From Terrabacter tumescens (GTDB lineage Bacteria; Actinomycetota; Actinomycetes; Actinomycetales; Dermatophilaceae): a stretch of 64,000 nucleotides of DNA. Position numbers and translations under genes: made by a program. The DNA lies in contig NZ_BMNZ01000008.1 in the NCBI RefSeq assembly GCF_014646815.1, positions 62,001-126,000 of the forward strand, written 5' to 3'. The notes beneath the pieces were generated by a model. The model had not been told where the DNA came from and did no database searches. It saw only the letters and a list, made by a program, of their open reading frames with translations. Positions 1-64,000 of the stretch are shown one piece after another (position 1 is the first letter of the stretch; every line of letters begins with the position of its first letter).

Positions 1-3000
1 ACCTCCGCGAGGTCGGCGTCGGAGCGCCAGGTGCCCGACTCGATGAGCGGGAGGATGCCGGCGCCGTAGGAGCCGGGCTTGCTGCCGAAGATGCGGGTCG
101 TCGCGCGCCGGGCGTCGCCGTGGTCGGCGAGGTCGCCGGCAACGTGGGCGCGCAGGTAGTTCTCGTCGGGTGACTCGTCGAGGTCGGCGACGAGCTGCAC
201 GGCGTCGTCGAGCATCGCGATGACGTGGGGGAAGGCGTCGCGGAAGAAGCCGGAGATGCGGACCGTGACGTCGATGCGAGGGTGACCGAGCTCGGCGAGC
301 GGCACCACGTCGAGCCCGACGACGCGGCGCGACATCTCGTCCCAGCGGGGCCGCACGCCGAGCAGCGCCAGCACCTCGGCGATGTCGTCGCCCGACGTGC
401 GCATCGCCGACGTGCCCCAGACCGACAGGCCCACCGAACGCGGCCACTCGCCGGTGTCGGCGCGGTGCCGGGCGAGCAGGTCGTCGGCGAGCCGCTGTCC
501 GGTCTCCCAGGCGAGCCGGCTCGGGATCGCCTTGGGGTCGACGGAGTAGAAGTTGCGGCCCGTGGGCAAGACGTTGACGAGGCCACGGAGCGGCGAGCCG
601 GAGGGACCGGCGGGCACGTAGCCGCCGTCGAGGGCGTGCAGCACCGCGTCGATCTCGCCCGTCGTCGCCCGCAGCCGCGGGACGACCTCGCGGCACGCGA
701 AGGCGAGCGAACGGCATACGCCCTCCCTGTCGACGTGCGGGAGGTCACCGAGCTGATCGGCGACGATCCCGGAGACCGCGCTCTCCTGCCAGCCGGCCTC
801 GGCGAGGGCCGCGACGAGCGCGACGGCCTGCTCCTCGGCGTCGTCGACGGACGAGCGCTCGGACTGCCCCTCACTCAGCCCGAGCGCCGTCCGCAGACCA
901 GGCACCGCGCCGACCGCGCCGGCGAAGACCTGGTTGGCCCGCAGGATCGCGAGCACGAGGTTGGCGAGGCCCTCCCCCGCGGGGGCCTCGCCGAGGACGT
1001 GGAGGCCGTCCCGGATCTGGACGTCCTTGACCTCGCAGAGCCAGCCGTCGACGTGCATGACGAACTCGTCGAAGGCCTCGTCGTCGGGACGCTCGTCGAG
1101 CCCGAGGTCGTGGTGCATCTGCGCGGCCTGGATGAGCGTCCAGATCTCGGCGCGCAGGGCCGGCGCCTTGGCCGGATCCATGACCGAGACGTTGCCGTAC
1201 TCGTCGAGCAGCTGCTCGAGCCGGGCGATGTCGCCGTAGGACTCGGCGCGCGCCATCGGCGGCACGAGGTGGTCGACGATCGTCGCATGGGCCCGGCGCT
1301 TGGCCTGGCTGCCTTCGCCGGGGTCGTTGACGAGGAACGGGTAGACGAGCGGGATCGAGCCGATCGTCGCGTCGGGTCCGCACGATGCGGAGAGCGCGAG
1401 GTTCTTGCCCGGCAGCCACTCGAGGTTGCCGTGCTTGCCCATGTGGACGATCGCGTGGGCGCCGAAATCCGCTGCGAGCCAGTCGTAGACGGCGAGGTAG
1501 TGGTGGGTCGGCGGGAGGTCGGGGTCGTGGTAGATCGCGATGGGGTTCTCGCCGAAGCCGCGCGGCGGCTGCACGAGGATGACGACGTTGCCGGCGCGCA
1601 GGCTCGCGGCGACGAGCTCGCCCTCGGCGTCCGTGTGCCGGTCGACGAAGACCTCGCCCGGCGCCTCGCCCCAGTGCTTCGTGACGGCGTCGCGCAGCGC
1701 GGCAGGCAGCGCGTCGAAGTGCTCGCGGTAGCGGGCGGCGGGGATCCGCACCGGCTGGCCGGTCAGCTGCTCCTGCGTCAGCCAGTCCTCGTCCTGGCCG
1801 CCGGCCTCGATGAGCGCGTGGATCAGGGCGTTTCCGGCCGTGGTGTCTGCGGTCTCGCCGTCGACGGGCTCGAGCGGTCCGGTGCCGGGGATGTCGCCCG
1901 GGGCGCCGAGGTCGTAGCCGGCGTCGCGCATGGCGCGCAGCAGCCGGATGATCGAGACCGGGGTGTCGAGGCCGACGGCGTTGCCGATGCGCGAGTGCTT
2001 CGAGGGGTACGCCGACAGCACGATCGCGATGCGGCGCTCACTGGTCGGGGTGTGCCGCAGGCGGGCGTGGTTCACGGCGAGCGTCGCCAGTCGCGCGCAA
2101 CGCTCAGGCTCGGGGACGTAGTGCGGCAGTCCGTCGCCGTCGATCTCCTTGAAGGAGAACACGCCCCCGATGATCCGGCCGTCGAACTCGGGCACCGCCA
2201 CCTGCGTCGCGACGTCGAGCGGGCTCATCCCGTCGTCGCTCGCCTCCCACTGGTCGCGGCCCCACGTGAGGCACAGGCCCTGGATGATCGGCACGTCGAG
2301 CGCGGCGAGGGCCTGCACGTCCCAGGCCTCGTCGTCCTCGCCGGCACTCGCAGTGCCGGGCTTGGTGCCGCCGGCGGCGAGCACGGTCGTGACGAGGACG
2401 TCGTATGCCGTGAGGTGCTCGAGCAGGTCGGCCGGCGCCTCGCGCAGCGACGACACGTGCACCGGGACGCCGATGCCGCCGGCTGCGTCGACCGCGTCGG
2501 CCAGCGCGTGGACGTAGGCGGTGTTCTCCGCGGCGAACTGGGCGCGGTAGAAGAGGATCCCGACGCGCGGGCGGGGAGTGTCGCCCGCGACGTCGGAAAT
2601 CTGGGTGGCCGCGGGCTCGGGGCGGTCGAGCACGCCCCAGGCCGGCAGCGGGGCCGGCGGCTCGAAGCCCTCGCCGGTCATGAGCAGCGTGTCGCCGAGG
2701 AAGGCGTGCAGCTCGCGCAGGTTCGCGGCCCCGCCCTCGGCGAGGTAGCGGTGGGCCTCGGCGACGACGCCGGGCGCGACGGTCGAGAGGTCCATGAGCG
2801 AGGCGTTCGGGGTCTGCTCCCCGCCGAGCACCACCATCGGCTTGCCGGCGCCCCGGATGCGGCGGAAGCCGTCGCAGAGGTCCTGGGGGCCGCCGAGGAT
2901 GCGGGCCACGACGACGTCGGCAGCCTCGATCGCCTCGGCCATCGAGGTGTGGCCGGGTCGCGACGGGTTGGCGAGCAGGTAGTCGGCACCGCTGCCGCGG

Positions 3001-3050: not shown

Positions 3051-3094
3051 TGGAACTCCTCGGCGGGGTATCCGCGCCCCGCGGTCGAAAGGAA

Positions 3095-3205
3095 ACGAAG
3101 CGCTGCCGGCAGTTCCTGACTCACCGTCTCCCTCACGGGTGGCGGCTCACAGTGGCGGGACCGTCCCGGATTCTCACCGGGTTCCTGGGTCGACGACGCT
3201 GGGCC
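3095..3205 (-). promoter_or_regulatory. Cobalamin riboswitch upstream of cobN
   Basis: Read on the reverse strand the leader contains the hallmark core CCGGTGAGAATCCGG, then GGTCCCGCCACTGTGA, then the B12-box-like AGTCAGGAACTGCCGGC, in the usual order and spacing. It ends about 45 bases before the cobN start. No U-rich terminator was seen, so control may act on translation. Adenosylcobalamin binding would switch cobN off. Confidence 0.93.
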
Positions 3206-3206
3206 C

Positions 3207-3212
3207 ACCATA
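3207..3212 (-). promoter_or_regulatory. -10 element for cobN/riboswitch transcript
   Basis: TATGGT on the reverse strand lies a few bases upstream of the start of the riboswitch fold, where a -10 box is expected. No convincing -35 was seen. Confidence 0.45.
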
Positions 3213-3250
3213 GCCCGAGACGGGCGCCTTGACGACGCGAGGTCCGGGCC

Positions 3251-3256: not shown

Positions 3257-3263
3257 GTGCCGC

Positions 3264-7285: not shown

Positions 7286-7693
7286 TCAGACCGCCGACCA
7301 GGTCAGCGACAGCCCACTCGGTGTGAACGCACGCTCCGCGACCTCTGCACCGGGCTCGGCGACACCGGGCCCACCCTGCCTGACCCAGCCGGTGATCGCG
7401 TCGACCGAGGCGCCGTCGAGGACGGCTCGCACCCAGACGGGCCGACCTCCCGCGCGGCGACCCACGGCCGACGGCGTCACGACGACGACGTTCGACTCGT
7501 CGCACGCGAGCAGGCACCCGCTGCGCAGCACCCGGGCGCGTCCTCGGGTGCCGACCTCGAGGCGTGCGAGGAGCCCGTCATGGTCGACCCCGGGGTGCTT
7601 GCTCTCGGTGCCGCAGCAGCAGTCCCGGCACACGCGCACGATGCACGTGCGCTCGGGATCGTCGTCAGGACAAGGGCTCTCGTATGCCGTCAC
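7286..7693 (-). CDS. Thioredoxin-like [2Fe-2S] ferredoxin linked to CbtAB
   Basis: 135 residues. Cysteines C17, C22, C25-C27, C60 and C64 give the early Cys cluster plus CLLAC pair expected for a thioredoxin-fold [2Fe-2S] ferredoxin. It is the third gene of the riboswitch-controlled cbtB-cbtA unit and overlaps cbtA by GTGA, so it is made together with the cobalt transporter. A redox role in cobalt or corrinoid metabolism follows from the context but not from the sequence. The region around C22-C27 is unusually cysteine-dense. GTG start. Confidence 0.7.
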   Translation of the reverse strand: MTAYESPCPDDDPERTCIVRVCRDCCCGTESKHPGVDHDGLLARLEVGTRGRARVLRSGCLLACDESNVVVVTPSAVGRRAGGRPVWVRAVLDGASVDAITGWVRQGGPGVAEPGAEVAERAFTPSGLSLTWSAV

Positions 7694-8475
7694 GCCGACA
7701 CGGGCGCACCGGTGTCCGCGCGCACGTCGTCGTTTCGGGCCGCACCGGCTCGCTCCAGGAGCAGCCCGAACGTGAGCCCGAGCGTCAGCCAGAGGGCAGC
7801 GAGCTGCGCGAGGGACGCGAGACGGAAGTCCCAGACCAGGTCGGCCGGCACGTCGGCCGGCACCTGGTCCGGCGTCCCCGGCACGAAGGCCATCACGAGT
7901 CCGACGAGGAGGACGACTGCCACGACGTCGAGGGCCCAGCGCGTCGACGGCGCCATCACCCGTCCGGCCAGCCGCCGATCGAGCGCCGGCACGACGACCG
8001 CGATCGCCACTCCGAGAAGGAGGGTGACGGCATACAGCATCGTGCGTCGTCCGACGGTCGACGGGTCACCGACGGCGGGTGGGTTGGCCGGGATCTTCAG
8101 CGCCGGAAGGAGACTCACGGCTGCGAAGCCGATCGCGGCCAGCACGAGCGCGCGACCGAAGTCGCCACTCCCGGGAAGGCGGTCCCGCAGCCGGGCGAAG
8201 ACGACGGCGAAGACGACGCCGACGGCCACGCCGACGATCACTGCGGTCACGGCGCCGCCGACGACCTGGGCCGCACGCGACACGAGGGGCTCCTCACCGC
8301 CGTGCATCGGCAGGCCCGCGGCCTGTCCCCCGTGCATCCCCCGCCGGTCCTCGATGACGAGGGCCCGACGGATGACCGGTTCGACGACGAGCCAGATGAC
8401 GACCGCGGCCGCCAGGCCGGCGAGCATGCCTGCAAGGACCCCGCGCCGCAGCACGGAGCCGAAGCTCAGGCCCAC
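7690..8475 (-). CDS. cbtA: Cobalt transporter subunit CbtA
   Basis: 261-residue membrane protein with about six or seven hydrophobic segments. Its N-terminal RRGVLAGMLAGLAAAVV and the His/Met-bearing loop RRGMHGGQAAGLPMHGGEE fit CbtA. CbtA and CbtB form a predicted cobalt uptake system regulated by B12. GTG start one base after the cbtB stop; it is covered by the cobalamin riboswitch upstream of cbtB. Confidence 0.85.
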   Translation of the reverse strand: MGLSFGSVLRRGVLAGMLAGLAAAVVIWLVVEPVIRRALVIEDRRGMHGGQAAGLPMHGGEEPLVSRAAQVVGGAVTAVIVGVAVGVVFAVVFARLRDRLPGSGDFGRALVLAAIGFAAVSLLPALKIPANPPAVGDPSTVGRRTMLYAVTLLLGVAIAVVVPALDRRLAGRVMAPSTRWALDVVAVVLLVGLVMAFVPGTPDQVPADVPADLVWDFRLASLAQLAALWLTLGLTFGLLLERAGAARNDDVRADTGAPVSA

Positions 8476-9714: not shown

Positions 9715-11000
9715 GACTGGTCCTCCGGATCCGTTTGGGGCACAGGCTTCTCCACCGACCACTGCACGACCGATCGTGCGGGCTTCCAGCCGTGGAGGCT
9801 TCCGATGGTGTCGAGGTCCTCGACGGCGATCCTCGTCATCGACCCGCCGAGGCGGCCGCGCGCCTCGTGCAGCAGCACCTCGGTCTCGACCGTGACGCCG
9901 TGGACGACGAGTCGCCCTCCCGGCGCCAGAGCGTGCCAGCAGGCGTCGATGAGGTCGGTGCTCGCCCCGCCACCGACGAAGACGGCATCGGGCTGCGGCA
10001 GCGTCGCCACAGCGTCCATGGACGCGCCCTCGACGACCCGCAGCCCCGGCACCCCGAGAGCTCGTGCGTTGCGGCGCACCCGCTCGGCCCGGACGGGGTC
10101 GCGCTCGACGGCGTGCACCTCGTTGCGCGGGTGCTGGCGGGCGAACTCGATGCCGACCGACCCGGCTCCGGCGCCGAGGTCCCACAGCACGTCGCCCGGC
10201 TGGGGCGCCAGGTGCGCCAGCGCGGCGGCCCGCACGACCCGCTTGGTCAGCTGCCCGTCGTGGTCGTATGCCGTCTCGCCCAGTCCCGGGACGAGCGACC
10301 TCGCGCTGCGGCCGGGGTGCGCCTCGCACTCGACGCAGACGAGGTGCAGCCGTGGCGCGGGGCCGCCGTCCCACGAGGCGGCAAGCCCGTCGGTCCGCGA
10401 CTCGTCCGGGGACCCGAGGTCACCGAGCACCGTGAGGCGACTGCCGGCATACCCCTCCTCGACGAGCAGGGAGGCGACGCGGGCCGGGGCGTCGGCACCG
10501 GACGTCAGGACGACGAGCCGGGCACGGGGCACGAGGTCGCGTCGCAACCGGTCGAGGTCACGACCGACGAGGGTGACGACGTCGGACTCCTCTGCGGCCC
10601 AACCCATCCGGGCTCGGGCCAGGGCGACCGACGACACGCCGGGGTGGATGCGCACGGCGTCCGCGCCGAGCTCGCGCACGAGGGTGGAGCCGATCCCCGA
10701 CACCAGCGGGTCACCGCTCGCGAGCACCACGACGCGCTGCGGGCCGAGCTCGGCGAGCAGGCCGCGAAGCCGAGGGAGGAGAGGTGACGGCCACGGCACG
10801 AGCCGCCGGTCGGGACGCGTCTCGAGCATGGCGAGGTGACGCTCGCCCCCGATGACGACGTCGGCCTCCTCGACCAGCCGGCGGCACGTGGCATCGAGCG
10901 AGTCGACCCCCGACGCGCCGACCCCGACCACCTCGAGCACCGGTGGACGGCCCGCCGTCACCGCACCGTCGCTGCTGCTCGCGTCCCGGATCGAAGCCAC
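9711..11000 (-). CDS. cobL: Precorrin-6Y C5,15-methyltransferase (decarboxylating) CobL
   Basis: Bifunctional enzyme: an N-terminal CobE/CbiE-type methyltransferase (VVGVGASGVDSL, ASGDPLVSGIG) and a C-terminal CbiT-type Rossmann methyltransferase (LWDLGAGAGSVGIEFAR, VFVGGGAS). It methylates C-5 and C-15 and decarboxylates the ring C acetate. With the GTG at 11000 it is 429 residues; another GTG near 10958 would shorten it slightly. No clear ribosome binding site decides between them. The open frame continues far upstream but that extension is non-coding noise. Confidence 0.9.
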   Translation of the reverse strand: MASIRDASSSDGAVTAGRPPVLEVVGVGASGVDSLDATCRRLVEEADVVIGGERHLAMLETRPDRRLVPWPSPLLPRLRGLLAELGPQRVVVLASGDPLVSGIGSTLVRELGADAVRIHPGVSSVALARARMGWAAEESDVVTLVGRDLDRLRRDLVPRARLVVLTSGADAPARVASLLVEEGYAGSRLTVLGDLGSPDESRTDGLAASWDGGPAPRLHLVCVECEAHPGRSARSLVPGLGETAYDHDGQLTKRVVRAAALAHLAPQPGDVLWDLGAGAGSVGIEFARQHPRNEVHAVERDPVRAERVRRNARALGVPGLRVVEGASMDAVATLPQPDAVFVGGGASTDLIDACWHALAPGGRLVVHGVTVETEVLLHEARGRLGGSMTRIAVEDLDTIGSLHGWKPARSVVQWSVEKPVPQTDPEDQS

Positions 11001-21504: not shown

Positions 21505-21533
21505 GCGACGAACGTACGCGACGACGTATGCCG

Positions 21534-39287: not shown

Positions 39288-39382
39288 CCTACCTCAGACG
39301 CGCCACACGGCATACGCCATCGGATCTGAGGTAGGTGGTGCGCGCGGATAGGGAGGTCGTCCGATGTGGGGCCCTACCTCAG
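39288..39382. repeat. Three alternating copies of a 10-bp element before the LuxR operon
   Basis: CCTACCTCAG at 39288-39297, its exact reverse complement CTGAGGTAGG at 39326-39335, and CCTACCTCAG again at 39373-39382. The middle copy can pair with either outer copy, so the transcript could form two mutually exclusive hairpins; alternatively they are protein-binding half-sites. They occupy most of the 209-bp region between lysE and the small gene at 39430. Confidence 0.65.
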
Positions 39383-49186: not shown

Positions 49187-49217
49187 GTATGCCGCCGGTC
49201 CGAGCCCGGCGGCATAC
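49187..49217 (+). terminator. Hairpin built from two copies of the window-wide octamer
   Basis: GTATGCCGCCGG (49187-49198) and its exact reverse complement CCGGCGGCATAC (49206-49217) form a 12-bp stem with a 7-base loop, 26 bases after the DUF2853 stop. No U tract follows, so it would be a non-canonical, GC-rich terminator. Both arms start with the octamer GTATGCCG that recurs across the window. Confidence 0.6.
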
Positions 49218-50381: not shown

Positions 50382-51391
50382 CGAGGGCGTATGCCGTCAC
50401 GTCCCTCGTGGACGTCGACCCACGTCGAGCGTGGGCTGACGTAGGGCGAGATCAGCTCGACGAGCACCGGATCTGCCTCTCCTGCAAGGACGTGCGAGGC
50501 GACCCGCCGTGCGGCGCCGGCCAGGAAGTCGGCCAGCTGCACGCGCGGGTCGTCCTGCGAGTCGACGAAGCTGATGCCCTCGAGCGAGTCGGACCACCCG
50601 TCGGCGCTCGACCCGACGGCGGTGCGGATGGCGGCATCGGTGAGGGTCGCCTGCACGTCGTGCACGACCCAGAGCGGGCGGCCCGCGCCTCCCCAGTGGC
50701 GCAGGACCTCGGCGAGCGCCGGCACGATCGGGTCGAGCGCACCGCGTCCGCGTGCCACGAGGGCGAGCAGGCCCTCCGGGTCGTCGGGCACGGCCGCGAC
50801 CACCGAGCGCACGAGCTCGCCCGAGTCCGCCGGGAGGCCGGGCAGGTCCGCCAGCCCGACGAGGCCACGACGCAGCGCCGACGCGCTCGCCGCCGCGTCC
50901 TGGAGCGAACGGGCCCGTACGACGTCGTTGAAGTCCGCCAGCACCGTCTCCCACGCCGCCGGGCCGAGGCGTCGCGAGGCCGATCGGTGCAGCAGCTCCA
51001 CCCGGCGGGCGACGTCCCGTTCCGACGGGGCGCCGTCGCTGCCCTCCCCGCCGCCGAGCAGCGCCACGAGGCGGCCGGTGAGGTGCAGCGCCTTGTCGGT
51101 CAGGTGCACGTGGGCACGGCCGAGGAGCGGGCCGTCCTCACCGAGGAGCCACTCGAGCAGCCGCCGGTTCTGCGGTCGCAGGACGACGCTCGCCTTGACC
51201 TCCGTCGCGGGCGAGCGCGCCTCGACGCGCACGCGCTCGATCGTCGCGAGGGCGGCGCCGGTCGTGACGTCGACGCTCGCGTGGGCGAAGGTGTCGGTGC
51301 TGCCCCGGACGAGCTTCTCGCCCTCCGAGCCGGACTCGTCGCACGCCACCTCGAGGAGGACGGCGGTGCGCGAGGGCGCGGCGGACGGCAT
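50351..51391 (-). CDS. DUF3800-like protein
   Basis: 346 residues. The early ACDESGSEGEKL motif (DESG at about 18-21) and the late SQDDPRVQLADFLAGAARR segment carry acidic residues placed as in the DUF3800 family, which has an RNase H-like fold and often accompanies mobile or defence genes. The middle is Ala/Leu-rich and helical. Function unknown; nuclease activity would be inference. ATG start with GGATGAG upstream. Divergent from the B12-binding gene. Confidence 0.55.
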   Translation of the reverse strand: MPSAAPSRTAVLLEVACDESGSEGEKLVRGSTDTFAHASVDVTTGAALATIERVRVEARSPATEVKASVVLRPQNRRLLEWLLGEDGPLLGRAHVHLTDKALHLTGRLVALLGGGEGSDGAPSERDVARRVELLHRSASRRLGPAAWETVLADFNDVVRARSLQDAAASASALRRGLVGLADLPGLPADSGELVRSVVAAVPDDPEGLLALVARGRGALDPIVPALAEVLRHWGGAGRPLWVVHDVQATLTDAAIRTAVGSSADGWSDSLEGISFVDSQDDPRVQLADFLAGAARRVASHVLAGEADPVLVELISPYVSPRSTWVDVHEGRDGIRPRQTAGRRVIQ

Positions 51392-53560: not shown

Positions 53561-54838
53561 ATGACCTGGGCCGGACACCTCCCCGCGAGCCGCGAGTACC
53601 GCCGCATCCTCGTCGGGCTCGGGGCGGCCGGCGTCGCGACCTTCGCCCAGCTCTATTCGCCACAGGGCCTGCTCCCGACGCTCGCGCGCGGCCTCGAGGT
53701 GAGCCCCGCCGACGCGGCCCTGTCCGTCTCGCTCGCGACCCTCGGCGTCGCGCTCGCCGTGCTGCCCTGGTCGTGGGTCGCCGACCGGGTCGGCCGCCTG
53801 CGCGCCATGCAGGTCGCCATCATCGCCTCGACCGTGCTCGGTGTCCTCGTCGTCCTCGCCCCGGGCATCGAAGCGCTCCTCGCGCTGCGCCTCGTCGAAG
53901 GCATGGCGCTCGGTGGCCTGCCCGCCCTCGCGGTCACCTACCTGCACGACGAGGTCCATGCGCGGCACACGGCTGCGGCCGCCGCGGCCTACATCTCCGG
54001 CACGACGATCGGCGGCGCCGCCGGTCGGCTCATCGCCGGACCGCTCGCCGGCATCGTGGGCTGGCGTCCTGCGCTGCTCACCGTCGCTGCCGTGTGCGCG
54101 ATCGCCTCGATCGTCTTCCTGCGCCTCATGCCCCGTCCACGTGGCTACCGACCGACGACCGCGGCGACCGTGCGCACGGTCGCGGACGGCATACGCACCA
54201 GCGTGCGCGACCCCGCGCTGCTCGCGCTCTACGCCCAGGGCGCGCTGCTCATGGGCGGCTTCGTCGCGGTCTACAACTACCTCGCCTTCCGCCTCGAGGG
54301 GCCGGAGTTCGGGCTGCCCGCGACGGTCGGGTCGCTGATCTTCGCCGCGTATGCCGCGGGCACCGTCAGCTCGCGACTGACCGGCCGCTGGGTGCCGCGT
54401 CTCGGACGGCGGCGCGTGCTCGTCGCGGGCACGACGACCATGGCCGCAGGCTCCCTGCTCACCCTCTCGAGCGCGCTGCCCGTGGTCGTGGGCGGCCTGC
54501 TCGTGCTCACGGCCGGCTTCTTCGCGGCGCACGCGACGGCCTCGGCGTGGGTCGGCGCGCGCGCCACGACCGGGCGCGCGCAGGCGACGGCGCTCTACAA
54601 CGTCTGCTACTACAGCGGATCCGCGCTCGTCGGGTGGCTGCTCGGCTACGCATGGTCGGGCCCGGGATGGGGTGCGGTGGTCGGAGCCGTCGTCGCGCTC
54701 GCGGTCCTCGCTGCCGGGCTCGCCCTCGCGGTGCTGCCCGCCCGCTCCCCCGCTCGTGCCGCCGTTACGCCTCCGACGGGACCCGGCGCGGTGCATGCTG
54801 TCCCGCATGACCGACGGTCCGGTGGGGGGACCACGTAG
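53561..54838 (+). CDS. MFS transporter (YnfM-like)
   Basis: 425 residues with 12 membrane helices. Starts with EYRRILVGLGAAGVATFAQLYSPQGLLPTLARGL, the YnfM/CynX-like type, with the MFS motif ADRVGRLRAM after helix 2. Substrate unknown. The Pro/Arg-rich C-terminal tail (about 395-425) overlaps the acyltransferase start by 32 bases. Regulated presumably by the divergent LysR protein. Confidence 0.85.
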   Translation: MTWAGHLPASREYRRILVGLGAAGVATFAQLYSPQGLLPTLARGLEVSPADAALSVSLATLGVALAVLPWSWVADRVGRLRAMQVAIIASTVLGVLVVLAPGIEALLALRLVEGMALGGLPALAVTYLHDEVHARHTAAAAAAYISGTTIGGAAGRLIAGPLAGIVGWRPALLTVAAVCAIASIVFLRLMPRPRGYRPTTAATVRTVADGIRTSVRDPALLALYAQGALLMGGFVAVYNYLAFRLEGPEFGLPATVGSLIFAAYAAGTVSSRLTGRWVPRLGRRRVLVAGTTTMAAGSLLTLSSALPVVVGGLLVLTAGFFAAHATASAWVGARATTGRAQATALYNVCYYSGSALVGWLLGYAWSGPGWGAVVGAVVALAVLAAGLALAVLPARSPARAAVTPPTGPGAVHAVPHDRRSGGGTT

Positions 54839-57017
54839 GGCGGACATCCAGGGCCTGCGGGCCGTGGCAGTGCTCGCCGTCATCGCCTTCCACGTCTTCG
54901 GCTGGCCCGGCGGCGGCTACCTCGGGGTCGACGCCTTCTTCGTCGTGTCCGGCTTCGTCATCACCGGGGTGCTCCTGCGCGAACGGGACCGGACGGGCCG
55001 GATCTCCCTGCGCGCCTTCTGGATCCGACGGGCACGGCGCATCCTGCCGCTCGCGCTCGTCGTCATCGCCGCCGTGGTCGTGGTCGCGCCGTGGGCCTGG
55101 GCGGGGGCCAAGGTCGCGTCCGTCCGCGCCGACGCGCTCTGGGCGACGCTCTTCGCCGCGAACTGGCACTACGCCGCGCGTGCCGACAGCTACTTCGACA
55201 CGGGCTCGGCGCCGTCGCCCCTGCTCCACTACTGGTCGCTCGGCGTCGAGGAGCAGTTCTACCTCGCGTGGCCGCTCCTCGTCGTGCTGGCCGTCGCCGT
55301 CGCCGGTGGTGTGCGCCGTCACCGGGCCGCGGTCGCCGCGCTGGCCGTCGCCGTCGGCGCCGCCTCCCTCGTCTGGGCCGCCCTCCAGAGCACGTCGGAC
55401 CCGACGACCGCCTACTACTCGACGCTGACGCGCGCGTGGGAGCTCACGCTCGGCGCCGCCCTCGCCACCCTGCCTGCTGGAGCCGGCGCTCAGCGCCGGA
55501 ATGCCGTGCGACTGCGCCTTGCAGCCCGCACCGCGCTGTCGTGGGCGGGGCTCGCGACGCTCGTGACGGCATACGTCCTCGTCTCCCCGGACACGGGCAG
55601 CCCGTGGCCGGCGGCGCTCTGGGCGGCGGCAGGGACGGCCCTGGTGCTCGTCGCCGGCATCGGTGCGCCCGTCCCGGGAGCGGTGGTGCTGACGAACCGG
55701 GTGAGCGGCTACGTCGGCGACATCTCCTACGGGCTCTACCTGTGGCACTTCCCGCTCGTCGTGCTCGCGCCCGCGGTGCTCGCGACGACGGGCGCCGCCA
55801 CCACGGCGGTCGTGCTCGTCGGCACCCTGGCCCTCGCCGCCATCTCGCACCACCTCGTCGAGCGCCCGATCCTCGACGCGCCCCGCGTGCGACGGCGCGG
55901 GGTGCTCGCCGCGGCCGTGGCGCTCGTGCTGCTCGTCGCCGGCGTCGGAGGCGCAGCGGCCGCGCGGCCCGACCTCTTCTCGGGCGGGACGGTCGTGGCG
56001 GCCGCGGAGCCCGACGGCGCGGTGCCGCCCCCGGTCGGCGAGGCCCCCGAGACGACTGAGGCGCCGGCCACGCCCGAGGCGACGTCTACCCCGTCGCCGC
56101 CGAGCCTGTCCGCCGCACCCACGCCGACACCGACCCAGACACCGACGCCGACCGGATGGACTCCCATCCCCTTGGGCGCCACGGGAACCCGCATCCAGGA
56201 CGGACTACGCGGCGCGCTCGCCTCCAGCTCGTGGCCCGCCGACCTCAACCCGTCACCGGACCAGTGGCAGACGACCGCAGACCAGCGGGCCGCGATGAGC
56301 GCGTGCACCGCGACCGGTGCCGCGGACCCCGAGTCGTGCACGTTCGGCAACCGCGCCGGGCCCGAGATCATCGTCTACGGCGACTCGATCGGCTTCCCGC
56401 TCCTCGCGACGGTCGAGAAGGCGTACGGCGCGCGCTACAAGGTGCGCGGGATGACGAAGATCGCGTGCGCCGTCAACGGCGTCGACGCGAACTACGGCAA
56501 GGACGAGTGGGCGGTCCCGTGCGTCAACCACCGGAAGATGGTCCTGGACTACGTGCGGCGGGTGAGGCCGAAGGTGCTCATCATGACCGAGACGTACTCG
56601 TGGGCGGTGCGGCTCAAGTCCGGCGCCAAGGGGGCGGCGTCGGCGAGGGAGTGGCTCGCCGCCGACCAGAGGTTCGTCGACTCGGTGCGCGGCAGCGTCG
56701 GCACCGTCGTCATCGTCGCGCCGTCGATGCCGGGCGTCGCCTTCCTCGACTGCTACCGACCGGGCGGCTCGCCGGGAAGGTGCGTCACCGGCATACCGAC
56801 GTGGTGGGCGCGCACCCGCGACGTCGAGAAGAAGGTGCAGCACGCGGTCTTCGTCGACACGACGCACTGGTACTGCGTCGACGACCGCTGCCCGATCTTC
56901 ACGACCACGACCGGCACGGTGCTCAAGGGCGACTACCTCCACACGTCGGTGCAGTACGCGCGGCAGCTCGCGCCCGACCTCACCCATCTGCTGCGGGCCT
57001 CCGGCGTCAGGCTGTGA
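54807..57017 (+). CDS. OafA/acyltransferase-3 family surface O-acyltransferase with SGNH domain
   Basis: 736 residues. The acyltransferase-3 membrane domain (about 10-375, ten helices) begins RADIQGLRAVAVLAVIAFHV and has the FFVVSGFVITGVLL and SLGVEEQFYLAWPLL signatures. A Pro/Thr-rich spacer (about 410-450) leads to an extracytoplasmic SGNH-like domain with YGDSIGFPLL near residue 524 and TTHWYC and DYLHTS in later blocks. It would acetylate or otherwise acylate a cell-surface polysaccharide or peptidoglycan. ATG inside the end of the MFS gene. Confidence 0.88.
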   Translation: MTDGPVGGPRRADIQGLRAVAVLAVIAFHVFGWPGGGYLGVDAFFVVSGFVITGVLLRERDRTGRISLRAFWIRRARRILPLALVVIAAVVVVAPWAWAGAKVASVRADALWATLFAANWHYAARADSYFDTGSAPSPLLHYWSLGVEEQFYLAWPLLVVLAVAVAGGVRRHRAAVAALAVAVGAASLVWAALQSTSDPTTAYYSTLTRAWELTLGAALATLPAGAGAQRRNAVRLRLAARTALSWAGLATLVTAYVLVSPDTGSPWPAALWAAAGTALVLVAGIGAPVPGAVVLTNRVSGYVGDISYGLYLWHFPLVVLAPAVLATTGAATTAVVLVGTLALAAISHHLVERPILDAPRVRRRGVLAAAVALVLLVAGVGGAAAARPDLFSGGTVVAAAEPDGAVPPPVGEAPETTEAPATPEATSTPSPPSLSAAPTPTPTQTPTPTGWTPIPLGATGTRIQDGLRGALASSSWPADLNPSPDQWQTTADQRAAMSACTATGAADPESCTFGNRAGPEIIVYGDSIGFPLLATVEKAYGARYKVRGMTKIACAVNGVDANYGKDEWAVPCVNHRKMVLDYVRRVRPKVLIMTETYSWAVRLKSGAKGAASAREWLAADQRFVDSVRGSVGTVVIVAPSMPGVAFLDCYRPGGSPGRCVTGIPTWWARTRDVEKKVQHAVFVDTTHWYCVDDRCPIFTTTTGTVLKGDYLHTSVQYARQLAPDLTHLLRASGVRL

Positions 57018-58055: not shown

Positions 58056-58144
58056 GCGCGCCCGAGCGCACCCGAGGACCGGGCGACACGGCATACGCCC
58101 GTCCGGCCCCCGTTGTGGGAGGCGTCGGCCATGATGTGCGAGTC

Positions 58145-59482
58145 ATGACGCGATGGACTGCCCAGCAGGTGGCCGGCCTGGCCCCCGACGCCTCGTCGCT
58201 GACGGCTGCCCGCCGGCTCGCGCGGCCGGGCCCGTGGTCCGACACCGGGTCGACGCCGACCCTGCTGTGGGGCAAGTGCCAGGGCTCGGGCAAGACGCCC
58301 TACCAGGTGAGCATCGACCTCATCGGCCCGGCGTTCCGCTGCTCGTGCCCGAGCCGCAAGTTCCCGTGCAAGCACGGGCTCGCGCTGCTGCTCCTCTGGG
58401 TCGACGGGTCGGGCTCGGTGGCCGACGCCGACGAGGCGGCCGGCTTCGCGCAGGAGTGGGCGTCCGAGCGCTCGGCCCGCGCCGAGGCGAAGGCCGCGGG
58501 TGACGCGGCCAAGTCGACGCGGACGCCCGACCCCGCCGCGGCCGCCAAGCGGCTCGAGGAGCGGCTCGCCCTCATGGACGGCGGCATGGACGACTTCGCC
58601 CGCTGGCTCACCGACCTCGCGCGCAGCGGCACGGCCTCCGCGCGGCAGCAGTCCTATGCGTGGTGGGACGGCACCGCGGCTCGCCTCGTCGACGCGCAGC
58701 TGCCCGGGCTCGCCGACGACGTTCGCTCGGTCGGCGGCGCGGTGAGCGGTCGACCCGACTGGGCCGAGCGGCTGCTCGTGGCGCTCGGCCGCTGGTGGAC
58801 GGCGACTCGGGCGTGGTCTGCGCGGGAGTCGCTCGGCGAGGACCAGCTCGGCGACCTGCGCGCCTACCTCGGCTGGTCGACGAGCACCGAGTCGGTGCGC
58901 CGGGCCGACGCCGTGACCGACCGGTGGCTCGTCCTCGGCGCGCACCGCAGCGACGACGGACGTCTCCAGCAGCAACGGACCTGGTTGCGCGGCAACGCCT
59001 CCGGCGAGATCGTGCAGGTCCTCGACTTCGCCGCGGGCGGTCAGGTGCTGCCCGTCGCACGCGTCGTCGGCTCGAGCCTCGACGCGACCCTCGCCCGCTA
59101 CCCCGGCGCCGCCGTGCGCCGTGCGCTCTTCGTCGACGAGCCGGCTGTCGCCGACGACCGAGGGCGTATGCCGTCCGGCGCGTCCCTCGAGGAGGCCCGG
59201 TCCGCGGCTGCGCAGGCGTGGGGGCGCAACCCGTGGGCGCGCCGGGTGCCCGTCGTCCTCGCCGACGTGCGTGTCGGTGTCGACCGGGTCGTCGACGCCG
59301 ACGGCGCGAGCGTGCGGCTCACCGACGACGCCGACGTCTGGCCGCTGCTCGCCCTGACCGGTGGCCGGCCGGCACGTGTCTTCGGCGAGCTCGAGGAGTC
59401 GCGGCTGCGGCCGCTCACCGTCGTCGTGGCCGGCGACGGTGGCGGCTCCGGCGACGGGGACGGCGAGGTCGTGGGCCTGTGA
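58145..59482 (+). CDS. SWIM zinc finger protein
   Basis: 445 residues. The SWIM motif CxCx6CxH is complete: C66, C68, C75, H77 in FRCSCPSRKFPCKHG. After an Ala-rich helical linker (about 100-140) the rest is a long domain of unknown function shared by SWIM proteins in this gene arrangement (WWDGTAARLVDAQLPG, WLVLGAHRSDDGRLQQQRTW). SWIM domains bind DNA or protein. Stop overlaps the next GTG, so it is the first gene of a coupled set with DUF5691, MoxR ATPase and DUF5682. Confidence 0.85.
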   Translation: MTRWTAQQVAGLAPDASSLTAARRLARPGPWSDTGSTPTLLWGKCQGSGKTPYQVSIDLIGPAFRCSCPSRKFPCKHGLALLLLWVDGSGSVADADEAAGFAQEWASERSARAEAKAAGDAAKSTRTPDPAAAAKRLEERLALMDGGMDDFARWLTDLARSGTASARQQSYAWWDGTAARLVDAQLPGLADDVRSVGGAVSGRPDWAERLLVALGRWWTATRAWSARESLGEDQLGDLRAYLGWSTSTESVRRADAVTDRWLVLGAHRSDDGRLQQQRTWLRGNASGEIVQVLDFAAGGQVLPVARVVGSSLDATLARYPGAAVRRALFVDEPAVADDRGRMPSGASLEEARSAAAQAWGRNPWARRVPVVLADVRVGVDRVVDADGASVRLTDDADVWPLLALTGGRPARVFGELEESRLRPLTVVVAGDGGGSGDGDGEVVGL

Positions 59483-60999
59483 GCGACCTCGACACGTGGT
59501 GGCGTGACGTCGGCAACGCGGCGGTCGTCGGCACGGCCCGGCGCCCGGTGCCGCCGCTGCCCGACCTCGGGCCGTCAGGAGTGCAGGCTCGTCCGGCGGG
59601 TCAGCCGCGCGAGGAGGCGCTCCTCGACGCCGCCGCCCTCGGCGGGGCCGCGCTGCGCGCCGGACGCAGGCTCGACCACGCCGAGCCTCCGGAGGCCGCA
59701 CCCGACGACCAGCGGGCCGAGGCCCCGAGGCGGGCCGTCCAGCTGCTCGAGCTCGTCCTCACCCAGCCACCCGCCGGCGCCGCGCAGCGCACGGGCCTGC
59801 TCGCCCACTGGCTGCGCGCCGCGGACGACGCGGGCTGCCGCGTGCCGCACGTGCTCGTCCCGACCCTGCTGACCCTCGCCACGGGGTCGCGCGAGCTGCG
59901 GCGCCCGACGGCTGCTGTGCTCGACGAGCGCGGCCGGTGGCTCGCGGGCCTGCGCGAGGACTGGTCGTGGGTGACCGATGCCGCTGCGGGCGCCGAGGCG
60001 CGCAGCGCGTCACGCGCCGCCGGCATCGCGCCCCCGGCCGACGAGTGGGGGCGCCTGCCCTCGACCGACCGGGTCGCCGTGCTGTCCTCCGTCCGCGCGC
60101 ACGACCCAGCCGCGGCACGGGAGCTCATCAGCTCGACGTGGGCGAGCGACTCCGCACGAGACCGGCGCTCGCACCTCGAGACGCTGCGCATCGGCCTGGG
60201 CCCCGACGACGAGCCGCTGCTCGAGGCGGCGCTCGACGACCGCGCCGGCACCGTACGCGAGATCTCGACAGAGCTGCTCGACGTCCTGCCCGGCTCGGCG
60301 CGCGCCGCGCGGATGGCCGAGCGCCTGCGCCCTCTCGTCCGACGCACCGGACTGCTCGGCCGTGGCGTGGAGGTCACCCTGCCCGACGAGCCCGACCCGG
60401 CCGGCGTCCGCGACGGCCTCGGCAAGCCCCCGCCGCGTCGCTCCGCCCGCGGCTGGTGGCTCGAGCAGCTCTGCGCCGGCGCGCCCCTCGAGGTCTGGGC
60501 CGAGCTGACCGGCGCCGACCCGTCCGCGACGGTCAAGAGGCTCACCGACGCGCAGGCGACGGACGCGCTGGCCGGCATACGCCGTGCGGTGCAGGCCCGG
60601 CGCGACCCCGAGTGGGCGGCAGCGCTGCTCGAGCGGGGCTGGGACGCCACGCTCGTGCCCGCCCTGCCCCGGGAGCGCCGCGAGCGCATCGTGCTCCAGC
60701 GGGTCGACGCCACGACCGAACGGGTGCACGAGATCGGCTCGGTCGTCGGCTCGGTCGACGCGCCGTGGTCGCCGGACTTCAGCGTCGCGCTCGTCTCCCG
60801 GCTGCGGGCGTCCAGGTTCGGCTCCGCCATGGTGATGGCCTCGATGCCGCACCTGCTCGCCGGGCTGCACCCGGCGGCCCTCGACCCGCTCGAGCGCTGG
60901 ATCGAGTCCACCGGCGCCGACCAGACCCTGACGACCAACCTGCGCAACCTGCTCCAGTTCCACTCCGTCAAGCGATCGATCACCGAGGCCTTCAGATGA
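59479..60999 (+). CDS. DUF5691 family protein
   Basis: 506 residues, mostly helical and repeat-like, starting SDLDTWWRDVGNAAVVGTARRPVPPLP and with LLAHWLRAADDAGCRVPHVLVPTLL, HLETLRIGLGPDDEPLLEAALDDRAGTVRE and a closing FSVALVSRLRASRFGSAM. The HEAT-like pattern suggests a scaffold. DUF5691 occurs in this same neighbourhood next to SWIM and MoxR proteins. GTG start overlapping the SWIM stop and ATGA overlap with the ATPase. No catalytic motif seen. Confidence 0.8.
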   Translation: MSDLDTWWRDVGNAAVVGTARRPVPPLPDLGPSGVQARPAGQPREEALLDAAALGGAALRAGRRLDHAEPPEAAPDDQRAEAPRRAVQLLELVLTQPPAGAAQRTGLLAHWLRAADDAGCRVPHVLVPTLLTLATGSRELRRPTAAVLDERGRWLAGLREDWSWVTDAAAGAEARSASRAAGIAPPADEWGRLPSTDRVAVLSSVRAHDPAAARELISSTWASDSARDRRSHLETLRIGLGPDDEPLLEAALDDRAGTVREISTELLDVLPGSARAARMAERLRPLVRRTGLLGRGVEVTLPDEPDPAGVRDGLGKPPPRRSARGWWLEQLCAGAPLEVWAELTGADPSATVKRLTDAQATDALAGIRRAVQARRDPEWAAALLERGWDATLVPALPRERRERIVLQRVDATTERVHEIGSVVGSVDAPWSPDFSVALVSRLRASRFGSAMVMASMPHLLAGLHPAALDPLERWIESTGADQTLTTNLRNLLQFHSVKRSITEAFR

Positions 61000-62093
61000 G
61001 CGAATCACCTTCTGCCACCACGGTCCTGCGCGCCCACGCCGAGAACGCGTATGCCGCCGAGCTGGCCGCGCTCGCGGCCAGCGACGACCGACCGCGTCCA
61101 CCACGCTGGCGGATGTCGCCCTGGGCCGTCACGACCTACCTCCTCGGCGGCACGCTCGACGACGGCACCGAGATCACGCCGAAGTACCTCGGGTCGCGCC
61201 GGCTCATGGAGGTCGCCGTCGCCTCGCTCGCCACCGACCGGGCCCTGCTGCTGCTCGGAGTGCCCGGCACGGCCAAGACGTGGGTCAGCGAGCACCTCGC
61301 GGCCGCTGTCAGCGGGTCGTCGACGCTCGTCGTCCAGGGCACGGCCGGCACGCCCGAGGAGTCGCTGCGCTACGGCTGGAACTACGCGCGGCTGCTCGCC
61401 GAGGGCCCGACGCGTGGCGCTCTCGTGCCGAGCCCGGTCATGCGCGCCATGGAGACGGGCTCGCTCGTGCGCATCGAGGAGCTGACGCGCATCCCGGCCG
61501 ACGTCCAGGACGCCCTCATCACGGTGCTGTCGGAGAAGCACCTGCCGATCCCCGAGCTCGACTCCGAGGTGCAGGCGCAGCAGGGCTTCAACGTCATCGC
61601 CACGGCCAACAACCGCGACAAGGGCGTCAACGACCTGTCGTCGGCGCTCAAGCGCCGCTTCAACACGCTCGTGCTGCCGCTGCCCGACTCCCTCGAGCAG
61701 GAGGTCGAGATCGTGCGCACCCGCGTCGACTCCCTCGGCCGCTCGCTCGAGCTGCCGCCCGGGCTCGAGTCGCTCGCGGAGATCGAGCGCGTCGTCACGA
61801 TCTTCCGCGAGCTGCGGTCGGGCGTCACGGCCGACCAGCGCACGACGGTGAAGTCGCCGTCGGCCACCCTCTCGACGGCCGAGGCCATCTCGGTCATGAC
61901 CAACGGCCTGTCGCTCGCGGCCCACTTCGGCGACGGCGTGGTCCGTGCCGACGACGTCGCGGCCGGCCTCGTCGGGGCTGTCGTCAAGGACCCGGTCCAG
62001 GACCGGATCGTCTGGCAGGAGTACCTCGAGACCGTGGTCAAGGACCGCACCGAGTGGACCGACCTCTACCGCGCGTGCCGCGAGCTGGGCTGA
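60996..62093 (+). CDS. MoxR-type AAA+ ATPase
   Basis: 365 residues. Walker A GVPGTAKT at 88-95, Walker B LVRIEEL around 157-163, sensor 1 in FNVIATANNRDKGVNDLSSALKRRFNT, which also has the arginine finger region. MoxR ATPases work as chaperones with VWA-domain partners that carry metals or regulate complexes. The VWA partner is not in the window; it is expected after the DUF5682 gene. ATG overlaps the DUF5691 stop and the next gene starts one base after this stop. Confidence 0.9.
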   Translation: MSESPSATTVLRAHAENAYAAELAALAASDDRPRPPRWRMSPWAVTTYLLGGTLDDGTEITPKYLGSRRLMEVAVASLATDRALLLLGVPGTAKTWVSEHLAAAVSGSSTLVVQGTAGTPEESLRYGWNYARLLAEGPTRGALVPSPVMRAMETGSLVRIEELTRIPADVQDALITVLSEKHLPIPELDSEVQAQQGFNVIATANNRDKGVNDLSSALKRRFNTLVLPLPDSLEQEVEIVRTRVDSLGRSLELPPGLESLAEIERVVTIFRELRSGVTADQRTTVKSPSATLSTAEAISVMTNGLSLAAHFGDGVVRADDVAAGLVGAVVKDPVQDRIVWQEYLETVVKDRTEWTDLYRACRELG

Positions 62094-62094
62094 C

Positions 62095-64000
62095 ATGACC
62101 CAGGTGGAGGTGCTGGGCGTCCGGCACCACGGACCGGGCTCCGCGCGATCGGTCGCGCGCGCCCTCGACGAGCTGCAGCCCGACGTCGTCGTCATCGAGG
62201 GGCCGCCCGAGCTCGACGCCCTCGTCCCGCTCGCGGCCGACCCCGACCTCGTGCCGCCGGTGGCCGGCCTCGTCTATGCCGTCGACGAGCCGCGGCGCGC
62301 CGCCTTCTACCCGTTCGCGGTCTTCTCACCCGAGTGGGTCGCCCTGCGGTGGGCGCTCGAGCACGGCGTCGACGTCCGCTTCGCCGACCTGCCCGCGACG
62401 CACCACCTCGCCGACAGCGACGGCGAGGAGGCGCCTCGCCGCCCGGGTCGGCGGGTCGACCCGATCACGGCCCTCGCCTCGGCCGCCGGCTACGACGACC
62501 CCGAGCGCTGGTGGGAGGACGCTGTCGAGCACCGCCGCACGTCCTCGCTGACGCACTTCGCGCACCTGCGCGAGGCGATGCACGGTGTCCGTGGAGACCT
62601 CGAGGTCGACGACGACGCCCGACGAGAAGCGTTCATGCGCAAGGTGATCCGGGCCGAGATGCGCGCCGGTCGCGAGCGCGTCGCCGTCGTCTGCGGCGCC
62701 TACCACGCGCCGGCCCTCGACCCGGCGTCGTTCCCGCCGGTGAGCCGCGACAACGCCCTGACGAGCAAGCTGCCCAGGATCAAGGTCGCCGCGACGTGGG
62801 CGCCGTGGAGCTCCGAACGGCTGTCGTATGCCAGTGGCTACGGCGCCGGGGTCCGCTCGCCGGGGTGGTACCACCACCTCTTCGTCACCCCCGACGACGA
62901 CGTCGTGCCGTCGTGGTTCGTCCGGGTCGCCCGGACCCTGCGCGGCGAGAACCTCGACGCGTCGACGGCGTCGGTCGTCGAGGCGACCCGGCTGGCCGGT
63001 GCGCTCGCAGCGGTGCGTGGTCGTCCGTCCGTCGGCCTGGCCGAGCTGACCGACGCCGCCCGCGCGGTGCTCACCGAGGGCGCCGACCTCCCGCTGCGGT
63101 TCGTCGACCGCACCCTCGTCATCGGCGAGGAGCTCGGCCGGGTCCCGGAGTCCACCCCCATGGTCCCGCTAGCCGGCGACCTGGCCCGGCAGCAGAAGTC
63201 GCTGCGGCTCAAGGCCTCCGCGACCTCGACCGTCGTCCAGCTCGACCTGCGCCGCGAGTCGCAGCTGGCCCGCTCGGTGCTGCTGCACCGCCTCGCGGTG
63301 CTCGACGTGCCGTGGGGCACGCAGGTCGAGGCGGGCCGCACCATGGGCACGTTCAAGGAGGCGTGGGAGCTCGAGTGGACGCCCGAGCTCGCCGTCGCCG
63401 TCATCGAGGCGAGCCTCTACGGCACGACCGTCCGCACCGCGGCCGAGTCCCGCATCGCCGAGGAGGCCCGTGAGGCAGCCGACCTCGGCGTGCTCGGCCG
63501 GCTCATCGAGGAGTGCCTGCTCGCCGACCTGCCCGAGGGCCTGCGCGCCGTCGTCGCCGCTCTCGCCGAGCGCACGGCCAAGCAGCACGACACCCGGGCC
63601 CTGCTCGAGACCGTCGAGCCCCTCGCCCGCACCTGCCGCTACGGCGACGTCCGCGGCGTCGACGTCGCCGACGTGACCCACGTGCTGCAGACCGTCGTCG
63701 TGCGCGCCTCCGTCGGGCTCCGGGCAGCCTGCTCCAGCCTCGACGACGACAGCGCCGCCGCGATGCGGACCGCGGTCGAGGCGGCCCACCGAGGGGTGGC
63801 CCTCGTCGACCGCGACGACCTGCGCGAGCCGTGGTCCGAGGCGCTCGTGACGGTCGGCCGCGACGAGGCCATCCACGGCGCCGTCGCCGGGCGCGTCAAC
63901 CGGCTCCTGCTCGACGGCGGCCTGCTCACCCACGACGAGGCGGCCGCGCGCCTGAGCCGCCGCCTCTCCCCCGGCACGCCCGCCCCCGCGGCGGCCGCCT
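62095..64000 (+). CDS. DUF5682 family protein (3' end beyond window)
   Basis: 635 codons are visible and the frame is open at the edge. It starts MTQVEVLGVRHHGPGSARSV, and VVIEGPPELDALVPLA follows; the early RHHGPGS and EGPPE motifs and the later VVCGAYHAPAL recall the TraB/PrgY/EreA-like hydrolase fold, in which conserved His and Glu residues are catalytic. DUF5682 is a constant partner of SWIM, DUF5691, MoxR and VWA genes. The start is one base after the MoxR stop. Its activity is unknown. Confidence 0.83.
   Translation, partial: MTQVEVLGVRHHGPGSARSVARALDELQPDVVVIEGPPELDALVPLAADPDLVPPVAGLVYAVDEPRRAAFYPFAVFSPEWVALRWALEHGVDVRFADLPATHHLADSDGEEAPRRPGRRVDPITALASAAGYDDPERWWEDAVEHRRTSSLTHFAHLREAMHGVRGDLEVDDDARREAFMRKVIRAEMRAGRERVAVVCGAYHAPALDPASFPPVSRDNALTSKLPRIKVAATWAPWSSERLSYASGYGAGVRSPGWYHHLFVTPDDDVVPSWFVRVARTLRGENLDASTASVVEATRLAGALAAVRGRPSVGLAELTDAARAVLTEGADLPLRFVDRTLVIGEELGRVPESTPMVPLAGDLARQQKSLRLKASATSTVVQLDLRRESQLARSVLLHRLAVLDVPWGTQVEAGRTMGTFKEAWELEWTPELAVAVIEASLYGTTVRTAAESRIAEEAREAADLGVLGRLIEECLLADLPEGLRAVVAALAERTAKQHDTRALLETVEPLARTCRYGDVRGVDVADVTHVLQTVVVRASVGLRAACSSLDDDSAAAMRTAVEAAHRGVALVDRDDLREPWSEALVTVGRDEAIHGAVAGRVNRLLLDGGLLTHDEAAARLSRRLSPGTPAPAAAA

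Follow-up and report, generated by a model that had tools for sequence, protein, structure and literature searches.

An oriented octamer abundant in Terrabacter tumescens and its relatives is a putative DNA uptake tag of the Dermatophilaceae

Why does a single eight-base word recur every one to two kilobases, on both strands, in the chromosome of Terrabacter tumescens? The stretch that raises this question, hereafter the window, comprises 64,000 nucleotides of contig NZ_BMNZ01000008.1 (positions 62,001 to 126,000), and the word is the octamer GTATGCCG, read as CGGCATAC on the opposite strand. Judging from its abundance, conservation, pairing and oriented spacing, this word is probably the tag of a putative DNA uptake sequence (DUS)-like system in the Dermatophilaceae.

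A first-pass annotation of the window had reported 44 copies of the octamer and its strong over-representation, both of which stand. There are exactly 44 copies, 20 as GTATGCCG and 24 as CGGCATAC, and the 13 coordinates given as examples are all right (13/13). Dinucleotide shuffles yield 0.69 copies (maximum 3 in 100), while the expectation for both strands is 1.98 with independent bases and 1.05 under an order-2 Markov model. The whole genome (4.71 Mb, 23 contigs) carries 2,358 copies, 1,158 on the plus and 1,200 on the minus strand, which is far above expectation; the reversed word, an imperfect control since copies can abut, occurs 199 times (111 + 88). Across 264 kb of the genome 148 copies were counted against 3.8 expected under the order-2 model. 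In the same 264 kb, variants at octamer positions 5-8 amount to 10 in all against about 19 expected, and the remaining one-mismatch words lie mostly near or below expectation, the exceptions being GGATGCCG (48 against 26.5) and CTATGCCG (6 against 2.5). The 148 copies are preceded by C in 101 cases and followed by T or C in 124 and by A in four, giving the extended preference CGTATGCCG[T/C]. The octamer differs from its own reverse complement and is non-palindromic. The excess is genome-wide, with 5-15 copies in every one of the 13 20-kb stretches counted, and is no by-product of a longer repeat.

Copies are found in genes of both strands, in several codon phases and between genes, with 35 in open reading frames (ORFs) and nine outside on rough gene calls, Tyr-Ala being the commonest phase (17 of the 35 genic copies). 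Among window ORFs with at least 0.9 GC at third codon positions, eight of the 12 TAT codons fall inside copies, compared with five of 146 TAC codons, as does one of the two ATA codons, which bears out the earlier remark that the octamer accounts for many rare TAT codons. Together with the genome-wide count, this spread over both strands, several phases and the DNA between ORFs supports a process that acts on the DNA word rather than on protein throughout the genome, and codon-pair preference does not account for the enrichment.

The word is, furthermore, conserved. Of 35 window sites aligned with a sister species, 26 are intact there, against 1,542 of 3,418 8-mers of equal composition, and a second region compared with five congeners gave 14/17, 16/19, 16/19, 9/13 and 14/19 intact copies, largely the same sites counted repeatedly. 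Over the six comparisons, in five congeners, the motif is thus intact at 69-84% of sites, against 37-48% for equal-composition 8-mers and 54-64% for those containing TAT, ATA, TAC or GTA. Twelve of the 27 non-conserved states are GTACGCCG, GTAGGCCG or GGATGCCG.

Copies also meet in convergent pairs able to form hairpins, defined as GTATGCCG-N3-24-CGGCATAC, of which the source genome holds 34 against about 6.5 expected by chance (1,158 x 1,200 x 22 / 4.71 Mb). Among other genomes, designated here by G numbers, G049 carries 205 (about 15 expected), G142 97 (about 20) and G140 90 (about 8.5). Nineteen of 21 pairs inspected, from seven genomes and for two words, lie outside ORFs, 15 of them no more than 100 bp past the point where an ORF ends, the other four elsewhere, on rough gene calls. 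Judged by position and fold only, the inverted pairs appear to be terminator-associated. The pair in the window begins 27 nt past an ORF end (49160) and is terminator-like, without a T run. DUS too have been reported as inverted pairs in terminators (PMC2397512; PMC3630211), and termination has been argued not to be their main role (PMC1939737). The motif copies of the window, all exact matches, are as follows, with the convergent pair placed after its two arms.

712..719, minus strand, motif copy
2403..2410, plus strand, motif copy
7682..7689, plus strand, motif copy
8028..8035, minus strand, motif copy
10266..10273, plus strand, motif copy
10445..10452, minus strand, motif copy
13897..13904, minus strand, motif copy
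16197..16204, plus strand, motif copy
17021..17028, plus strand, motif copy
18416..18423, plus strand, motif copy
19794..19801, minus strand, motif copy
20952..20959, minus strand, motif copy
21526..21533, plus strand, motif copy
22690..22697, minus strand, motif copy
24142..24149, plus strand, motif copy
25596..25603, plus strand, motif copy
25785..25792, minus strand, motif copy
27541..27548, plus strand, motif copy
27780..27787, minus strand, motif copy
29036..29043, plus strand, motif copy
30849..30856, minus strand, motif copy
32656..32663, minus strand, motif copy
36000..36007, minus strand, motif copy
37638..37645, plus strand, motif copy
38850..38857, minus strand, motif copy
39308..39315, minus strand, motif copy
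39655..39662, plus strand, motif copy
40745..40752, plus strand, motif copy
41575..41582, minus strand, motif copy
45715..45722, minus strand, motif copy
46528..46535, minus strand, motif copy
47493..47500, plus strand, motif copy
49187..49194, plus strand, motif copy, left arm of hairpin
49210..49217, minus strand, motif copy, right arm of hairpin
49187..49217, convergent motif pair, perfect 12-bp stem, fold z -3.1 against shuffles
49538..49545, minus strand, motif copy
50389..50396, plus strand, motif copy
54187..54194, minus strand, motif copy
54349..54356, plus strand, motif copy
55567..55574, minus strand, motif copy
56789..56796, minus strand, motif copy
58089..58096, minus strand, motif copy
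59166..59173, plus strand, motif copy
60573..60580, minus strand, motif copy
61049..61056, plus strand, motif copy

The two orientations are equally frequent and there is no local strand bias. Contiguous stretches hold 53/51 plus and minus copies in the source genome (200 kb), 40/38 in G142 and 43/34 in G165 (80 kb each), 22/20 in G170, 55/59 in G091 (100 kb) and 30/25 in G008. Whole-genome strand totals are uninformative on replication bias because a circular chromosome balances them. The GC skew of 20-kb pieces, itself a weak guide to replication direction, revealed no significant preference for the G-rich strand in 13 rows (lowest p 0.078), with 86 copies on the G-rich and 90 on the C-rich strand.

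Successive copies alternate in orientation, with 427 opposite and 207 same-orientation neighbours for GTATG words and 131 and 85 for CGAAGGGG (these and the first pair counts include orthologous stretches of five congeners), because same-orientation pairs are missing at short range, opposite pairs being at expectation. In an independent test, positions were held fixed and orientation labels permuted within regions (5,000 permutations) in 13 rows, where the source genome pools four regions including the window, the window-alone row overlaps the source row and the G084 row used GTACG[AG]CG. Same-orientation pairs 60-1000 bp apart numbered 17 in the source genome against 32.6 after permutation (p 0.0002, the permutation floor), 26 against 40.6 in G142 (p 0.0004), 24 against 36.1 in G165 (p 0.0008), 17 against 29.3 in G009 (p 0.0004), 46 against 59.2 in G091 (p 0.0034), 13 against 20.5 in G052 (p 0.0058), 49 against 61.7 in G084 (p 0.010), 18 against 24.8 in G008 (p 0.027), 19 against 25.4 in G093 (p 0.043) and four against 8.4 in the window alone (p 0.023). 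The exclusion reached p < 0.05 in nine of 12 genomes. At 60-1500 bp, p was 0.0002 in the source genome, G142 and G009, 0.0026 in G165, 0.013 in G091, 0.031 in G052, 0.040 in G008 and 0.066 in the window alone, while no same-orientation depletion was seen at 1.5-4 kb in any of the 13 rows (lowest p 0.16).

Of the other 8-mers with comparable counts, a ratio as low was shown by two of 682 in the source genome, 1/71 in G142, 0/33 in G165, 0/119 in G009 and 2/53 in G091, and a recount of 8-mers in the permutation test gave three lower values in the source genome, one of them for TATGCCGT, which overlaps the motif. Spacing is more even than chance only within each orientation, and the exclusion range stays at about 1-1.5 kb despite a 1.7-fold difference in mean spacing (1,776 bp in the source genome, about 1,030 bp in G142 or G165). 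Whatever reads the word thus probably does so with strand polarity and over about 1 kb, as expected for a process such as import and recombination. In Neisseria, the DUS spacing of 1.1-1.5 kb has been reported to match conversion fragments of 1.1-1.7 kb (PMC2397512).

Within the order sampled, the word is restricted to the family. At least 400 copies are present in 106 of the 186 family genomes (30 of 53 genera), with 14 intermediate and 66 low on cut-offs that we set ourselves. The order sample comprised 258 genomes, 20 of them family members, and none of its 238 non-family genomes reached 400 copies, the highest count being 177 (G395, control 135); among non-family genomes with more than 50 copies the best ratio was about 3 (G195, 88 against 29). 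Near tadA (42 named loci), a clear excess was observed in, for example, Pedococcus, Knoellia, Serinicoccus, Metallococcus, Arsenicicoccus and Terrabacter, as well as in Phycicoccus Root101 and Soil802, a Tetrasphaera metagenome-assembled genome and five of six Ornithinimicrobium loci (6-15 copies). The tadA loci of Phycicoccus endophyticus, Humibacillus, Nostocoides, Kribbia and Janibacter, and those of Cellulomonas and Kineosporia, hold no copies.

Other words seem to replace GTATGCCG in some relatives, in the manner of dialects. Exploratory k-mer scans of 21 genomes poor or intermediate in GTATGCCG (27-180 kb each), in which enrichment was judged against each genome's own order-2 model and against the remaining genomes, led to the acceptance of another word in 12, in one of them weakly. 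GTACGNCG is enriched in G002, G014, G015, G084 and G090, its single forms mostly 3- to 8-fold, far below the 40-fold of GTATGCCG; GGATGCCG is enriched in G178 (39 in 40 kb against 3.6 expected) and weakly in G154, CGATGCGG in G083 (31 in 40 kb against 5.6), CGAAGGGG in G052, G091 and G093, and GTAGACC in G008 (107 in 180 kb against 13.9). The last of these genomes has 37 copies of GTATGCCG against 1,251-1,660 in its four congeners, which are GTATG-type; inside this one genus the word seems to have been replaced. No convincing word was found in G001, G022, G038, G096, G011, G019, G021, G184 and G114 (9/21; the G114 scan covered 27 kb only), GCGTCCG in G184 and CTGACG in G021 having been rejected as weak. 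Of the GTATG-type genomes, G009 prefers GTATGNCG (81 of 86 GTATG in 80 kb), and in G142 and G165 the octamer is mostly followed by C or T and then G. A consensus longer than elsewhere was observed in G041 (loci L056-L059), with C before, CTG.GGC after and 31 TATGCCG copies. GTACGNCG, GGATGCCG and GTAGACCG lie one or two bases from GTATGCCG, whereas CGAAGGGG does not. Adjacent DUS dialects likewise differ by one or two bases (PMC3630211).

Which machinery might read such a word? ComEC, present in 180 of the 186 family genomes, is near-universal and was rejected as a discriminator of motif-rich genomes, and the type IVa pilus was rejected as a cofactor with PilM_2 in seven of 186 genomes. One locus of G086 (G086:C2:210707-221974), with PilM (E 3e-38) about 10 kb from a T2SSE ATPase (E 7e-135), is apparently a type IVa pilus cluster. 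T2SSE-type ATPases, the class to which TadA belongs, were found in all 22 tested genomes. In the loci read, TadA type B (TadA-B) usually comes with tadB, tadC and TadE-like genes; an FtsK/FHA protein is encoded next to it, and some of these loci adjoin prfB, recognised by eye. Traced through the family with the TadA of G142 and sorted by hand from E-values among the matches listed, TadA-B is full in 137 genomes, partial at several break points in 31, some of which may be contig breaks, and missing from 18, namely, among the matches listed, six whole genera (13 genomes), G093, G118, G124 and the incomplete G101 and G181. In G141, G077, G115, G030 and G126 the TadA-B match contains a single in-frame TGA. 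Among genomes at least 80% complete, and again for the matches listed, two of 15 without TadA-B are rich in GTATGCCG, compared with 98 of the 161 that have it in full or in part. Four of the six genera lacking it were sampled for other words (G001, G022, G038, G096), and none was found. TadA-B fails as a strict determinant for G093, G118 and G124 and is retained as an association. In Micrococcus luteus, TadA1 of tad-1 has been reported as essential for transformation (PMC8467076).

An uptake tag could arise and persist as follows. In competent cells, a filament outside the cell, for which a Tad/Flp pilus like that of M. luteus is the most likely candidate, or a DNA receptor on that filament, would bind the word on double-stranded DNA, and in a single orientation only. 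ComEA/ComEC would next draw in one strand, beginning close to the tag, and the incoming piece, about 1 kb long, would be recombined into the chromosome. Tagged DNA would be taken up and recombined more often, so that the tag would build up by molecular drive, by selection for kin DNA, or by both. Since import would have strand polarity, any further tag facing the same way inside one import length would be redundant and lost, one in the opposite orientation being retained, and changes in the receptor would shift the preferred word between genera. We lean, somewhat less firmly than to the tag itself, towards a further, independent origin of sequence-specific uptake, the first in Gram-positives, with at least five words in the family and a Tad pilus in place of the type IVa pilus; the exclusion of same-orientation copies over about 1 kb would then be a direct record, in the genome sequence, of strand-polar import.

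A number of observations weigh against an uptake tag or against its proposed machinery. The literature surveyed gave no uptake or transformation data for the Dermatophilaceae, and the type IVa marker PilM_2 was not found in the source genome, ComP itself not having been searched; because this marker is absent, a ComP-type receptor is unlikely there. The association with TadA-B has a Fisher p of 0.0005, a value that takes no account of phylogeny and for which genomes with other words were classed as motif-poor, and without a full TadA-B, G118 and G124 keep 1,624 and 994 GTATGCCG and G093 keeps CGAAGGGG. Conversely, G011, G019, G021 and G184 carry TadA-B and yielded no convincing word in 40-120 kb, for which reason the expectation of a word in every TadA-B genome was rejected. 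Hairpin pairs are near chance in G117 (Ornithinimicrobium-type; eight against about five), and none was seen in the samples of G008, G084, G154, G178, G083 and G184, where fewer than one was expected each. Alternation is not significant for GTAGACC (35 opposite, 30 same). Exclusion at 60-1000 bp gave eight pairs against 11.9 in G178 (p 0.074; 0.036 at 60-1500 bp) and nine against 11.3 in G083 (p 0.22; 0.0054 at 60-1500 bp), while at 60-1500 bp it was not significant in G084 (p 0.073) and G093 (p 0.16), and G041 had one same-orientation pair (p 0.70 at 60-1500 bp). The genomes in the exclusion test all belong to the family. In Haemophilus influenzae, uptake was reported to be unaffected by the position or orientation of the best uptake word (PMC1939737), so that strand-polarity is not established at the uptake step for uptake words.

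The tadA-B of the source genome is, moreover, itself interrupted. Outside the window (L083:7216-12654, G000:C6), it is split within the P-loop codons by a 5.4-kb serine-recombinase element, with borders taken from ORF ends, a GC content of 0.65 and one motif copy, which encodes Resolvase, Recombinase and Zn_ribbon_recom domains as well as an FkbM-type methyltransferase and a STAND-type ATPase. In G100 (L242, G100:C43:9001-21500) the tadA halves are parted at about the same place by a different segment of some 11 kb, in which a recombinase-like gene was identified by its translated start alone. Competence genes elsewhere are reported to be recurrently disrupted by mobile elements (PMC4774983), and the disruption thus fits a competence role; equally, conserved ATP-binding codons simply make a good landing site for elements.

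The results with this word mostly match those for uptake sequences, including the hairpins after ORFs and the orientation-specific exclusion, and these two features are what the other explanations have to meet. An unlikely explanation is a Chi-like hotspot, read by a strand-polar nuclease-helicase of the RecBCD/AddAB/AdnAB class on breaks or imported DNA, with no uptake tag. The exclusion over about 1 kb indeed shows a strand-polar reader, the word varies between genera, and CGAAGGGGG is G-rich, as are several Chi sites; on present results, recombination of imported DNA is inseparable from its uptake, and of the roles proposed in the first-pass annotation, which did not include DNA uptake, that of a repair or recombination signal comes close to the evidence. 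Chi is, however, strongly biased with replication towards the leading strand, whereas contiguous stretches here are balanced (for example 53/51 in 200 kb) and none of the 13 GC-skew rows reached p 0.05, on which grounds a strand bias of Chi type or of FtsK-polar type was rejected. Hairpins just after ORFs are likewise not predicted by a Chi-like site; the remaining rivals predict neither these nor the exclusion.

A DNA-modification or self/non-self mark (orphan methyltransferase, BREX-like or phosphorothioation), or a HIP1-like mark, is improbable. The abundance of the octamer is HIP1-like, the specificity of such a mark could shift between genera, and single-strand modification systems use non-palindromic sites, which the octamer suits. 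Modification alone, however, does not enrich a site, the exclusion and the hairpins are left unexplained, and HIP1, in contrast to this octamer, is palindromic. Copies in all 13 counted 20-kb stretches would suit a site of chromosome organisation or segregation, be it for a nucleoid protein, FtsK-polar or SMC-loading, yet we regard this as very improbable: the strand balance of contiguous stretches argues against an FtsK-polar sequence, G008 and G084 would have no reason to lack the word, and the generic organisation site suggested earlier does not itself predict hairpins after ORFs or same-orientation exclusion. A by-product of codon-pair or mutational bias, to which the prevalence of the Tyr-Ala phase (17/35) might point, is scarcely credible and is already refuted by the counts, with copies tied neither to one strand nor to one phase nor to ORFs, eight of 12 TAT codons in copies although TAC is 12 times commoner, and hairpins, an exclusion zone and family restriction besides.

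Elsewhere in the window, the ORFs at 12099-19256 resemble, by their translated starts, a candidate cluster for cobalamin biosynthesis.

If GTATGCCG is an uptake tag, the trait of uptake words would have evolved anew in a remote phylum that uses another filament, and many environmental hosts would become available for testing drive against selection. Terrabacter, Knoellia and Janibacter would be predicted to be naturally transformable with tagged DNA, which would make a practical tool, and orientation exclusion would provide a sequence-only test for uptake words elsewhere. A 2016 review names two families, both Gram-negative, with sequence-tagged uptake, Pasteurellaceae and Neisseriaceae (PMC5031613). 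Among the matches listed, the titles and abstract openings of the open literature described no actinobacterial uptake word, most subscription literature being outside this scope.

How, then, does the Terrabacter word compare with known systems? With HIP1, the palindrome GCGATCGC and a very frequent octamer of coding and non-coding DNA, it shares its frequency in both kinds of DNA, and the likeness drawn in the first-pass annotation goes no further. HIP1, as a palindrome, cannot have an orientation, whereas the Terrabacter word is non-palindromic, has an orientation on which its spacing depends through a same-orientation exclusion of about 1 kb, and forms hairpin pairs mostly after ORFs. The pooled tad loci of Geodermatophilaceae (L202-L239) yielded no comparable word and show GATC palindromes, GTGATCAC in Blastococcus (28 against 5.0) and Geodermatophilus (14 against 1.4) and CTGATCAG in Modestobacter (20 against 3.5), which look more HIP1-like than the Terrabacter octamer because they are palindromes.

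The uptake signal sequence (USS) of Pasteurellaceae has a longer flanking consensus, whereas the Terrabacter-type word prefers few flanking bases, except in G041, and the two also differ in word, phylum and probable machinery. Like the Terrabacter word, USS is abundant, with 1,471 copies in a first genome (as cited in PMC1939737); its orientation was reported to have no effect on uptake (PMC1939737), while that of the Terrabacter word matters for spacing. Competence in M. luteus is alike in being actinobacterial and in relying on ComEA/ComEC and a Tad pilus with an essential TadA1 (PMC6370729; PMC8467076); the available text of these papers mentions no uptake word. The neisserial DUS is alike in being a short non-palindromic word at roughly one copy per 1-2 kb, with a strict core, dialects, inverted terminator pairs and copies about as far apart as recombination tracts are long (PMC3630211; PMC2397512), and the partial resemblance of ATGCCGT to the DUS start ATGCCGTCTGAA (PMC5031613) is probably chance. 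DUS is recognised in Neisseriaceae by the type IVa minor pilin ComP, while the USS receptor is not settled. The Terrabacter word differs from DUS in its letters, its Gram-positive hosts and the absence of the type IVa marker from the source genome. Because of that absence, receptor and entry route probably differ, and the octamer system is best described as one that may work like DUS rather than as a homologous member of it.

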